Shown here: positions 5,481 through 38,563 of the stretch, piece after piece
Layout: every line of letters starts with the position of its first letter
Numbering within the stretch: position 1 is the first letter of the stretch
Origin: Rhynchonema sp. JSB1_4
Lineage: Eukaryota > Nematoda > Chromadorea > Monhysterida > Xyalidae
NCBI GenBank assembly: GCA_030248065.1
Contig: JASAMV010006678.1
Coordinates: 1 to 64,000, forward strand
Length of the DNA: 64,000 nt
Direction of reading: 5' to 3'
Notes under the pieces: generated by a model
Told to the model about the DNA's origin: nothing
Seen by the model: only the letters and a program-made list of their open reading frames with translations
Database searches by the model: none
Translations under genes and position numbers: made by a program

Positions 5481-6218
5481 AAAAAAGTGAAAAAGAAAAG
5501 GCGCGAACTTACAACCAATCAGCAGCAAGCCCCGCCCACTTCGCGCACTTAGCGCCACAGCAAACTTTCCACCTCCGTTTCTCGCGATAGAAGCAATATC
5601 CAATTTTCCCTTATAGATGTAGACGAACTGCACGATGAGACAAATCGATTGGTATATGACTCGACCGGATTGGTCCAGTTTCCTGGGAGGAGATATGGTC
5701 TGTCGCAAAAAGTGTGGCCGCCGGAAGTCACGATTTTCGGGTGTCTGAAAAACCACTTTCCCATTGTCCGATCGAGCTCAAATTTTCAGCGTTTTGTTAT
5801 GGCTTGACTACGACTAGAAAACAATCAAAACATCTTTCAAAACCAATCACACGCGTTCGCACCAGCATCGCCGATATAACACGTGAGGTATAGGGAAAAA
5901 TCAGTTTTTCGAGCACGCTGATGTTTCACGTGCATGTTGGAAAAAATTTTTGCCACACGATTTCTTCACATCAACCTATCTTTCTGATAAGAACATTACC
6001 AACGACGAAATCCAGCTTTTTCCTGCTTCGTGGTCTAATCTCAAAGTACTGCGAAACGCTAATGCGTTCTCGTAGATGTTTTTGACTCAATCACGTGGCC
6101 ATCTGGTGCATTCGCACTGACGATGACCTGGTGCACCATTTCTCACATCGAAAAATGTACCAAAAATACATCATACTATCAAAAAGGCATGACATAAAAC
6201 TTTTTTATTTCAATGCAG
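5481..6218. other. Probable intron or upstream region of the lustrin-repeat gene
   Basis: No Cys-rich exon or signal peptide could be found here, although the next exon (6219) starts in the middle of a lustrin repeat and so needs upstream exons. A TGATGTTTCA motif is at 5919-5928. A copy of the dispersed GACGATGACCTGGTGCACC phrase lies at 6119-6140. Confidence 0.5.
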
Positions 6219-9200
6219 GCATCTAATTCGCCGGGCACCTACATTTGTTGTACGTCAGCGGCCCCCACGCAAGCGTACACCTGCCCAAGTGGACAACCTT
6301 ACAGAGTGGGCAGCCAATACCAGTTCTGTACAGTCGCCACTCAAACTTGTGCGCCCGGGTGAGTCTGGCGGGAAAAGTGAAATTGTTGGAAATTTTAGAG
6401 AAAGTATACCCACTTTTCATTGTACCTAGTGATGTGGGGGAGACTTGTGATATTCGGGCTTATAGTACTGTCGTTAATGCAGATCGCCCACTGTCATGTA
6501 TAATTTCTCGCGCTCATTTTGGGCTGCTTGAATTGGCGACAGTGTCATTAAGCCGACATTCGTGAACTTAGGAACCAACCCATACTCACGCACGAGTTTA
6601 CCGTCATTTTATAGGCGTTATTTTTAACTCATGAAATGCAGGTTACAGTATCTGTTCATTAGCAGATGATGTCACGCAGAAAAATGTTTCGTGCGCTATT
6701 AATAAGCCACAATACAAGACAAATCAGTCAATGACAAATGTATAGTCTTTCCGTTTTATAACAGTCCAGAGGCGGTATACAGAAAATGTTTCAACGCCTT
6801 GAAAAACAGCAGTCATCGTCGTGGATGATAAACAACAGGTTGACAACGTGGGTCGAAACATGCGTGTTACTTGATCGCTGCTGTTGCGATGAAACATTTG
6901 CTGTATAGTTTGTTTAGACCGAGAATAAAATGAAAGACTATAATTGTATAGGTACAGTAGGTGTGAAAACTCCAACTCAATCATCATGCATACAGGATAT
7001 GCCAACAGTTAAACAGGAAACCGTTTGTGATTAGGCTGGATCTCGGCTTCGGTTTCGAACTGGGAGCCCAATGTCCTTTGACGGATGAGCTGTGCTATGG
7101 GTGATATTTTCGAAACGGTGTAAAGGTCAGTTGGGTGTAAAGGTCGGTGGAAAGCTCGGTCGACAGCTCAGTGTGATAGACCTCGGTGTAAACTTGAAAC
7201 ATTCCACGTTAATAACAGGCAATGTTTCACGTTTACACCGAGCTGCGCCGACCGAGCTTTCGACCGAACTTTACACCGACCTTTACGCCCAACTGACCTT
7301 TACACCGTTTCGAAAATTCCACCCTATGAGTTTTGAGAGGTGCGTTAACTATAAACAGGCTGCTGCCTGCGCGCTCTTTGTAACAAGCTGATGCGCAGGC
7401 CACATGATTTAAATTTTGCGTTATGTATGTCATCTTTCTCAAAATGGTCTTGCTTGCCCAAATGTGTTTTGCTCAATTGCCCGGCCACCAAATGCATCAA
7501 CGGCCGAGATACAGCCTCATCAAAATAAGGTTTCCTTTTATGAAAAATATATTTCAAAAAATAAAAATCCCCAAATTGCAGCTATACGTGTCAGCGTGCG
7601 ACCAATATCGCAACATCGGTCTACATCTGTTGCAGTGGAGGCAGTACGAATCCCGGCGCGGTGCAGTACCAGTGTACCGGAATCGGTAAATTGGAAAAAA
7701 AGGAAAAATTTTCTCTTTCATTCAGTTTTGTGCCTGACGCGAACCGTGCGTATCCTTTCAGGCTCTCCGGTGGTGACTAACGGCGCCAATCAGTTCTGCA
7801 GTAGTTTACAGAATACGTGCATAATCGGGTAATTTATTTGATTCGGGGAAAGCGTGTTTTTATAGTCTGCCCTCGTTATCATTGCCTTGGAACATGGGGA
7901 AGTTTAAGACAAGATATAAGGGATTTTCTACAACTTGTAAACGGCTTAATTTCGCAGAAGTTTCGGGAGCGCGGGATCAGGATTAGAGATCGGGACCCGG
8001 GATTGGGATTTATTTTGATACTTTGGTAATCGGGATTCCGTTTGAACCCTAATCACTACAAAGTCATCATAAGGCTGGTACACTGTTCACCGTATGAAAA
8101 ATATGTCAATCATTTGATGTTTCAGTTCCACATGTCAGCCATCTCAAAACAACCCGTCGGTGACCATTTGTTGCTACGGAAGTGTCAACCCCCCGACACC
8201 CGGTGGTGGAACACTTCAGTGCAGCAATGGCGCCAACCCATACACAATTGCTGCGCAGAATGTGTATTGCAATCTGTTCCAACTGCCAACCACATGCCCC
8301 GCAGGTACATATGAATGACTTTGCATCATGTGGTGTCTTGTGAAACATCAGGCAGTTGGATGTTCAAATGTGCACTGGTCGCACGCACCAATAAAAAACA
8401 ATAGTGACGGCTACCATTGTGTGTTTTGCGCAATCACATCAGTGATGTTTCATGAGAACACAAGAGTTTTCCTGGTGATCACGTGACTAGTGAATTCGTA
8501 CTGATGATGACCTGGTACAAAGTCTGTCTGTATAAACAGGTCGAAGCGACGGGCTATGAAAGGACAACATTGCAAGTATGGCGCAATATTCACATTTCTT
8601 TCACTTTCATGATGGAACAAATACGAACGTGTTGCGTGACGGTATTAAAAAACAAATGTTTTCTTTTTCCTTCCAAAATCAGGCAACGACTGTCAAACGG
8701 CCATCGGTGGTTCGACAGGCAATCCAGCGACCACGGGCATTTGCTGCAGCACAGGCGTGACCCCGAGTTCCTACACCTGTCCGCTACAGTACCAACCTTT
8801 CTTAGGTGGGCTTTGAGGTTTATTACATTCACATTAATGATGTCCTGACTGAAAAAAGAACGAAACGGGCAAAAACCACACAAGTTATGCGCAGCGAGCA
8901 AAATTACCTGCATGACGTTTTTGCTTTGACCGAGATCCTTGGGATCAGGTGAAAATCTGGTGTCATTCTTGGTGGGGATACACTGGCGCAGCGCTCGTCT
9001 GTGACGATGGAGCTATAGCCAATCACGAAGCACATTGTTGCATACTGTAGCACCCTAGTTATCACATTTTCATCATCTCAGTTAAGTCTGACTTCAACTC
9101 CACACCTAACCTGATGTTTCACTTTCTATACAACAGCCACCAACAACCAGCCGATATTCTGCAACCAATTGGCGCCGGTGAACTGTCCCGGCGGTTCCAC

Positions 9201-36278: not shown

Positions 36279-36429
36279 AAAACAAATGCGCACCCGCGCC
36301 CCTACAGATATTCAGCCAACAAGTTGCCGAATATTTCAGTAATCGCTATGTCAATGAATTTTGCCAGGGGTTCCAGACAGACATTTTTTGTGAAAGCAGC
36401 CTGGGCCTAACCATTGTCAGGCTGTGCAG
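36279..36429 (+). CDS. Orphan exon of a Cys-containing extracellular protein
   Basis: One well-formed internal exon (acceptor TTGCCAG, donor GTACCT; phase 1 in, phase 2 out). It encodes about 50 residues with four Cys: NKCAPAPLQIFSQQ, NEFCQGF, IFCESS and RLC. A possible next exon at 37480-37541 (SFLCGVQFPKKPHLPQW) fits the phase. I could not join either to the Kazal-like gene upstream or to the exons at 38.6 kb. Family not recognised. Confidence 0.45.
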
Positions 36430-38563
36430 GTACCTGTACGCACGGAAATATGTAATGTATCCCGCACGCTGGAATATTTTGTTCGCATTTCTAGTTCCAC
36501 GCGCATGATAAGTATTGGTCGCACAATGACTATATAAGAATTGGTCAAATTTTTTCCTGAATCGTGAAGAGGGAAAGTGACGGGGCAATGACGTTGCGTT
36601 GCGTGAGCGCACACAAAGTATGTAGTAAAGAGAATGTTTCAGACCTGCGGCAACGTGGTTGATCTGCTAGATTATTTTTAGCTGTAAATGTTTTGTCAAA
36701 AATACAAGTAGCATAGTGGTTAAGGTTGAACCTGAAGATCAGGGTAGATGAATTCTGATTTAGTCATTGTGCGACCAATAGCAGGGGACTGCTAAAACAC
36801 TGAAACGTGACATGCAGGACTGACAATTTTGACTGTCAAGGCTGGCTGACGTAACAAGCAATGTGAATCACAACAAGCGAATGTTATGTTATTCCCACTT
36901 TTTGCTTATTCGCGGCCATCTCGCTTGCGTGCTTGGATGCAAACTGATTAATTGGCGGAGAAGCATTATCACGGACAAAATTTCGGTTGTTGAACATATT
37001 TTTTTAAAAATTTTTGAAGTATAATTTGAAATAAAACGAGCGAATTTACATCACTTATTCCGTTGCGTCCACTGCATAATTCGTTCTTTGGCACATAATG
37101 ATAAATTTGTCAAAATTTAACATCAAGATGGGCGGGGCTTGGGCTTATCTGTTTTTGACACAACAATAGAGAAAACCAAGGGGTGATAAAAAGTGGGCGA
37201 ATAATGCCTGTTTCCAAATAAGTCTGTGTGGCATGAAGGATGATCTTTAGTCTGCGAAACCATTGTTTAACCACGAATCCGGCATAGCTCGACACGAAGA
37301 AGTGCATGTGGCACTTTTTTGTGCCTGATTTTATTTTTGTAAAAACCGGGTGTTTCGCGGTAAAAATAAGGGAAAAAGCATATACTTCGCAACAACATGG
37401 CAAACCCCAATACCGCGATTAAGTACCGATTTTGCTACATATGTATATTTGAGTTTTTTTGCCGATCCTCAAATACAGCTTCTTGTGTGGCGTGCAGTTT
37501 CCCAAGAAACCACACCTACCTCAGTGGCGGCTATATTTTGTATATCGTGACACGATAATGGGTACCGTTTACCGTCACACAAATCGCCGGTTTTTTCAGG
37601 CTTCCTCTTGGCCCTCGAAATACAACGAAAGAAACAAGAAACTAATGCCCAGGAATTTCTGGCCAGCGAGAAGCATTGAAATTCGTGCTTTATCTGTCGC
37701 ACTGCACAGCTTACACGTACACAAGTGCAGCTAAACGGGTAAGTGGCGCAGTGAGAACACTAAACTTTATTCTGCTCAAGCAGGAAATAAAATTCCGGCA
37801 CAATTTCAAGGTGTTCGGTACAGTACTGCAACAAGCAAGCAACAACGACCGCAAAGGATGAAAGGGCTATACTGTAAATAGTTGTCTTTTTGACAGTAAC
37901 AGTCAGAGCAAAAGGTGTTCTTTCAGCTGAGGGAAGTCACAGGAGCCAGCCAGTCAATTGTTTGAATACTTGCGCAATATAACGTGTGGGTGAAACATCA
38001 GCATTTACAAAATAGGCCACTACAGTCTACTCGCAATTATATTCTATAGTGGCTGGCCATTTTTCGTCACTCTATAATGGTATAATTACGAGGTGATTGG
38101 CAGATCGGGAACCAAAATATCGTCGCAAAATATCCGCTACACATAGACGGTTGCACCATAATGAGTGTCACAAGAAGGAGGATAGACTGTATAGGTATGT
38201 ACTTCAGACTTGAATACCCAATCCTTCATTCATTGATTATGAAACATCAGTGCGTGTGTGTTTGTGATCGATGCAAAGTCTTGCGTGAAGTGCATACCAA
38301 TACATCTACACAGATAACGTCAACAACTTGCAGATGCCACACAAGCTGAATGCACAACTTGAACTTATGAATGTTCAAACAGGCCAAGCGCGATGTTTCC
38401 CATTCATGCCAGGTGTTGTGAATACACGATGTGATGCATTCACAACGATGGGCGTTACTCTGTTGGCACTTCATTGCTCCAAGTCACAACTTTTCTGTTT
38501 CAGTCTGAAAAGTATTGGGCGAAGAATAACACACAAATCACAAAATAACTTTAGTATTTGTAT
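36430..38563. other. Mostly without recognised features
   Basis: The possible exon 37480-37541 and a weak one ending at 37738 (donor GTAAGT) are noted but not firmly called. Two minus-strand TGAAACATCA motifs are at 37991 and 38240. CTGTTTCA, the literal Caenorhabditis 21U core, occurs once, near 38496. Confidence 0.4.

Follow-up and report, generated by a model that had tools for sequence, protein, structure and literature searches.

The 64,000-nucleotide stretch of Rhynchonema sp. JSB1_4 analysed here (contig JASAMV010006678.1, positions 1 to 64,000; hereafter the window) carries 31 exact copies of the 10-base motif TGATGTTTCA, both strands summed. It is well supported, by comparison with the small nuclear RNA (snRNA) genes of the same assembly, that this motif is a form of the genome's own snRNA promoter element, a SNAPc-type proximal sequence element (PSE). 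The copies dispersed through the genome are probably SNAPc-type promoters, with the transcription of PIWI-interacting RNAs (piRNAs) as their likeliest purpose. The kind is already known; its unusual features are the copy number, the split from the form found at U1 genes and a minority of sites with a TATA box.

A recount returned the same 31 copies that the first-pass annotation of this DNA had listed, 29 of them within 5919-38249, and the last 3,697 bases of the contig hold no further copy (31 in 67,697 bases for the whole contig). Dinucleotide shuffles of the window gave an expectation of 0.40 copies, with a maximum of 2 over 100 shuffles. The enrichment described in that annotation is thus real, at approximately 78-fold; its figure of 250-fold, an equal-base estimate, was too high. 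Among all 10-mers of the window the motif ranks next after two CA-repeat words. The whole assembly (203.9 Mb, 5,747 contigs) has 37,556 copies (18,829 + 18,727), an excess of approximately 109-fold over the reversed word, which occurs 345 times (172 + 173). The 14-mer AGCTGATGTTTCAC is present 1,053 times versus 4 for its reverse, approximately 8 times the number predicted from the base composition of the flanks. The word also appears to be strictly held, as one-mismatch forms are scarce: in a merged 250 kb, a set biased towards sites, there are 93 exact copies and no single one-mismatch form exceeds 11.

With a genome mean of 11.8 copies per 64 kb, the window is a rich patch (2.6 times the mean) and not the seat of the motif. 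The 32-kb domain, whose edges were picked after seeing the data, holds 29 copies versus 6.0 expected at the genome mean; the rest of the window holds 2 versus 5.8 expected, a depletion that is not significant (p 0.07). Counts across 19 other contigs are over-dispersed as well (chi-square 44.6, 18 d.f., for 93 sites over 549 kb), these being the first contigs holding sites, with site-free contigs absent from the test. The region 5919-38249 is a dense patch within a motif set dispersed over the genome. A single 32-kb piRNA cluster, as first proposed, is ruled out by the genome-wide count and was too narrow a description, and the clustering typical of Caenorhabditis elegans 21U-RNA loci was not found, copies being present on very many contigs.

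The evidence for the identity of the element comes from the snRNA genes. Rfam matches in the assembly number nine for U2, nine for U6, ten for U1 and eight for U5, and upstream DNA was read for 32 of these 36 (leaving out three U5 and a U6 lying at the end of a contig). Of the 32, 22 have a form of the core upstream, in a position that is constant within each gene type. Seven of the ten U1 regions have ATGTTTCA, two as exact TGATGTTTCA (L128 and L131) and five as TTATGTTTCA. All five U5 regions have a core (ATGTTTCA in one, ATGTTACA in four), occurring once as TTATGTTTCA, twice as TGATGTTACA and twice as ATGTTACA with other leading bases. For U2 a core is present in six of nine, one being TTATGTTTCA with GGCT upstream and five being TGATGTGACA or one change away from it, while in U6 four of eight regions carry the core TGATGCTACA, always as GCTGATGCTACAG and with a TATA-like stretch downstream. 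Taking the start of the Rfam match as the RNA start, as opposed to a mapped end, the distance from the core start is 42-43 bases for U1, 43-44 for U5, 45-46 for U2 and 54 for U6. This constant placement before the genome's own snRNA genes is what marks TGATGTTTCA as a probable SNAPc-type PSE, and the SNAPc-type promoter guessed at in the first-pass annotation is well supported, forms of the element being present before U1, U5, U2 and U6 genes of this assembly alike.

The resemblance extends to the flanks. The flank profile of the dispersed copies was used to score snRNA sites, and 13 of these gave a mean of 1.38 versus -1.04 for random bases, a value reached in none of 20,000 draws; the sites were 14 picked core-bearing ones, of which one was too short, with core-less genes and most near-duplicate promoters excluded. 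As the snRNA genes are related and not independent, the real strength of this result is lower. The lowest score (-4.31) belongs to the U1 gene L128, despite its exact TGATGTTTCA. It is worth adding, as a separate observation, that the U2 genes form two clearly distinct groups (L039-L043 and L044-L046) differing in both promoters and RNA letters, which may be diverged paralogues or point to a second organism in the assembly.

Within this one genome the snRNA elements and the dispersed copies use variants of one core and have similar flanks, and at the snRNA genes the distance to the RNA is constant; they differ in that U2, U5 and U6 are mostly altered in the 3' half (GTGACA, GTTACA, GCTACA). 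The dispersed copies do not seem to be stray snRNA genes, since TTATGTTTCA, the commonest U1 form (5 of 10), is near background genome-wide (2,024 versus 1,728 reversed), and since GACTAC was found at +10 to +36 in none of 139 dispersed sites (offsets are from the first base of the motif), GACTACC following the core in six of ten U1 and five of five U5 regions. By their letters they appear to form a separate class, differing by a single base from the U1 form seen most often. Among full ATGTTTCA cores a leading TG would distinguish the dispersed class, together with two U1 genes, from the remaining core-bearing U1 genes, which lead with TT. The rule is not absolute, given these two U1 genes and the frequent combination of TG with an altered 3' half in U2, U5 and U6.

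The 139 sites are what remained of 152 with enough flank after 13 near-copies of others were dropped; they were drawn from the window and its contig extension, from loci around genome motif and snRNA matches and from 60 short stretches, mostly in contig order and not at random, and eight further motif stretches did not enter the sample. Bases favoured in their flanks are GC directly before the motif (-2 and -1) and C then A directly after it (+10 and +11); the first-pass annotation had remarked that flanks differ except for a tendency to AGC before and C after. AT content is mildly raised at +97 to +128 (0.54-0.58 versus 0.53). With flanks unrelated in 139 of 152 sites, few copies can belong to repeats, and a derivation of the motif set from a transposon or another family of repeats is largely refuted and very improbable. 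Shared flanks do occur at a few sites: one group of sites preceded by GTTGCTT has common flanks, seven identical TATAAA-bearing copies occur on contigs C5374, C5490 and C4817, and there are the 13 near-copies themselves; the scarcity of one-mismatch variants is, however, unlike that of decaying repeats. The first-pass annotation had named uniform spread as part of a repeat family as grounds for dropping its proposal; the spread is indeed genome-wide, and the repeat family is not seen.

A partner for the motif is found on one side. At +19 the 4-mer TATA is found in 9 of the 139 sites, versus 0.38 expected, and 13 sites have a TATA that begins somewhere from +13 to +19, the bulk of sites having no TATA there. 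Genome-wide, 96 of the 37,556 copies have TATAAA at +19 versus 13.5 expected from base composition and versus 16 at the shifted control position +28, seven of which are one repeat, making +19 six times commoner. Such a preferred partner at a set 3' distance suggests that the element is polar and promoter-like, which argues against the sites belonging to some other DNA-binding protein, for example a forkhead factor, and acting as enhancers, insulators or pairing sites with only a secondary resemblance to a PSE. A structural or enhancer site could also take the form of a dispersed, strictly kept 10-mer at which no clear start signal is seen, and PMC3597512 cites the binding of a forkhead factor to the core motif of C. 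elegans; the match to the snRNA promoters, however, reaches into the flanks with the element at constant distances, and we consider this explanation quite unlikely.

The same TATA minority near +19 means that RNA polymerase III (Pol III) has to be considered, the copies then being SNAPc promoters of another short-RNA class, at least partly transcribed by Pol III from a PSE plus TATA as in U6, and not of PIWI-bound piRNAs. Agreeing with this are the TATA counts at +19, the lack of a clear piRNA initiator signature and the U1-like gene L131 (C3984:11908-12077, minus strand), which combines exact TGATGTTTCA with TATAAA at +17. This gene has an altered 5' end (ACTTACTTGG) and may be a U1 variant that is transcribed by Pol III or has decayed. 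Such a class is nevertheless unlikely to account for the set: the full TATAAA at +19 is limited to those 96 copies, the flanks are unrelated, and T runs over +11 to +64 have no obvious peak (with no background comparison, terminators beyond this range not being searched). Pol III is not known to transcribe any RNA class made up of tens of thousands of unrelated genes.

A Piwi-domain search of the assembly gave 54 matches. The 52-residue exon at C1663:21043-21198 groups with the PIWI clade, its best matches among solved structures being 'Protein piwi' (6kr6, 1.9e-15) and 'Piwi-A' (7kx7, 5.7e-14), with Argonaute-2 at 3.5e-4; in contrast, an AGO exon of the same genome matches Argonaute-2 at 3e-36. 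Contigs C3368 and C4595 have matches at profile positions similar to those of the C1663 exon. The genome therefore appears to encode a PIWI-clade Argonaute, as judged from the one tested exon. A Lustrin_cystein match and worm-like Argonaute exons point to a nematode source, while a protein search with a DPP-like frame returned no match. The C. elegans SL1 leader is absent from the assembly, even when 3 mismatches are allowed across a 24-base stretch that takes in the donor GT, which would be unexpected for a rhabditid nematode.

The match to published plectid nematodes makes piRNA promoters the best reading of the dispersed copies. SNAPc would bind TGATGTTTCA, flanked less strictly by AGCTNGC on its 5' side and CA on its 3' side, and the approximately 37,500 dispersed copies would recruit SNAPc and a polymerase, presumably RNA polymerase II (Pol II) as in other nematodes. 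Each copy would then start one very short RNA approximately 44-48 bases downstream of the motif start, and, with lower confidence, most of these RNAs may be loaded onto the genome's PIWI, so that the copies would be 21U-type piRNA genes in a dispersed arrangement of the Plectus/Pristionchus type. Their status as 21U-RNA genes is something we infer. Among the papers listed in literature searches, in one case 20 of 2,463, none had TGATGTTTCA as a piRNA motif in its title or the start of its abstract.

Several observations weigh against piRNA promoters. Ten of the 32 snRNA upstream regions (three U1, three U2, four U6) have none of the five core forms, several of these being weak or partial Rfam matches. 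The nearest candidate for a 5' half, GCT at -6, is present in only 17 of 139 sites (1.7 expected), and in Plectus the two motif halves are almost always together; the TATA-box minority likewise departs from P. sambesii, whose Pol II-transcribed snRNA and piRNA loci are reported to have no TATA box (Beltran et al., 2019, PMC6436959). The copies outnumber the 3,082 motif sites scanned in P. murrayi (PMC6436959) by approximately 12 times. An RNA start at a fixed 35-60 bases downstream, as the first-pass annotation had predicted, left no clear mark in base composition at the 139 sites, where the search for an initiator or a thymidine at one set place in that range did not clearly find either: YRNT has no single-offset peak, only a shallow excess of 1.14-1.18-fold over +30 to +44, and thymidine at +45 to +52 is not in excess (26.6% versus 26.9%). 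These sites also have no AT-rich spacer downstream of the motif, and no low-melting (pausing) region, AT content, a proxy and an accompanying sign only, being flat from +45 to +96. Small-RNA starts can spread over a window, according to PMC3597512, yet the flat profile is still less than was hoped for.

As read from DNA alone, one genome holds dispersed, probably short-RNA promoters and snRNA promoters that are nearly the same element. Their near-identity provides a direct test case for how one complex distinguishes gene classes and independently supports the published proposal that snRNA promoters gave rise to the piRNA genes of nematodes, and the motif alone suffices to list candidate loci. 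A bolder proposition, which we regard as doubtful, is that more than 37,000 single-locus snRNA-type promoters occur in a nematode that has PIWI and may lie outside the two groups with reported PIWI, that the TG/TT base separates small-RNA loci from most U1 genes, and that the TATA minority is transcribed by Pol III, so that two polymerases would serve one small-RNA class.

The copies in the window are collected in Table 1.

Table 1. Copies of TGATGTTTCA in the window and the patch holding most of them
Position	Strand	Feature	Remarks
5919..38249	none	dense patch	29 of 31 window copies; putative dispersed PSE-type motifs
5919..5928	+	motif copy	
8115..8124	+	motif copy	
8341..8350	-	motif copy	divergent pair with 8443
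8443..8452	+	motif copy	pair partner of 8341
9112..9121	+	motif copy	
12291..12300	+	motif copy	
12865..12874	+	motif copy	in open frame 12603-12935, right past its Lustrin_cystein match
13114..13123	+	motif copy	
16208..16217	+	motif copy	TATAAA at +19 (16227-16232)
17218..17227	+	motif copy	TATAAA at +17
17690..17699	-	motif copy	
18752..18761	-	motif copy	divergent pair with 18832
18832..18841	+	motif copy	pair partner of 18752
19019..19028	+	motif copy	AGC before, C after
19893..19902	+	motif copy	
20663..20672	-	motif copy	in open frame 20375-20767 (-)
20990..20999	-	motif copy	
22361..22370	-	motif copy	GCTAGC before, C after
22498..22507	-	motif copy	in open frame 22407-22784 (-)
23573..23582	-	motif copy	
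25101..25110	+	motif copy	
25366..25375	+	motif copy	GCTAGC before, C after
28585..28594	-	motif copy	divergent pair with 28711
28711..28720	+	motif copy	pair partner of 28585
31200..31209	-	motif copy	GCTGGC before, C after; divergent pair with 31261
31261..31270	+	motif copy	TATAAA at +21; pair partner of 31200
33299..33308	+	motif copy	TATA at +16; in open frame 33006-33449
37991..38000	-	motif copy	TATA at +19
38240..38249	-	motif copy	
49516..49525	-	motif copy	isolated, outside dense patch
54988..54997	+	motif copy	isolated, outside dense patch

All four pairs less than 130 bases apart are head-to-head (-/+), a number too small for a test. No known structured RNAs were found at the motif sites, only tRNAs passing the Rfam cut-off within the window. 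Two of the nine window frames tested first matched a Pfam family and none of ten further frames did. The window also has a 50-bp tandem repeat with GCTGCCAGTCACTATACTTGACTGAGGATGC in two arrays (1-346 and 2443-2675), a run of 130 TG dinucleotides (9979-10239) and, in the motif-poor right part, a match to the C-terminal dimerisation domain of hAT transposases (44553-44981).

Among known systems, the 21U-RNA loci of C. elegans (Ruby motif, core CTGTTTCA, also ATGTTTCA) are similar in being very many unrelated short loci and in having TGTTTCA, which, as had been pointed out in the first-pass annotation, is common to the window motif and the C. elegans core; ATGTTTCA is the core at the female-germline locus 21UR-2502 (PMC3597512). 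They differ in that the set described here is genome-wide and without an AT-rich spacer. The piRNAs of Pristionchus, found in introns of active genes (PMC6436959), are likewise dispersed over the genome in both orientations, with a strong low-melting pausing signal there and none visible here by AT content. In Sarkies et al. (2015, PMC4323106) no PIWI is tabulated for clades I-IV of their sample, and plectids are the only group outside Clade V for which PIWI is reported in PMC6436959. In Plectus the motifs peak 42 nt from the 21U, with the RNA starting 2 nt upstream of it (PMC6436959). Compared with these loci, by description of the published motif and not by its letters, the present element has a weak 5' part and, for a minority of sites only, a TATA box, and it is accompanied by no low-melting downstream region visible in AT content. 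Other features are common to both: P. sambesii and P. murrayi have a SNAPc motif that hardly differs from their piRNA motif, GTTTC lying in the 3' half, and the Plectus loci are dispersed (PMC6436959); the genome studied here has a PIWI exon and a dispersed motif that contains GTTTC and nearly matches the one at its snRNA genes.

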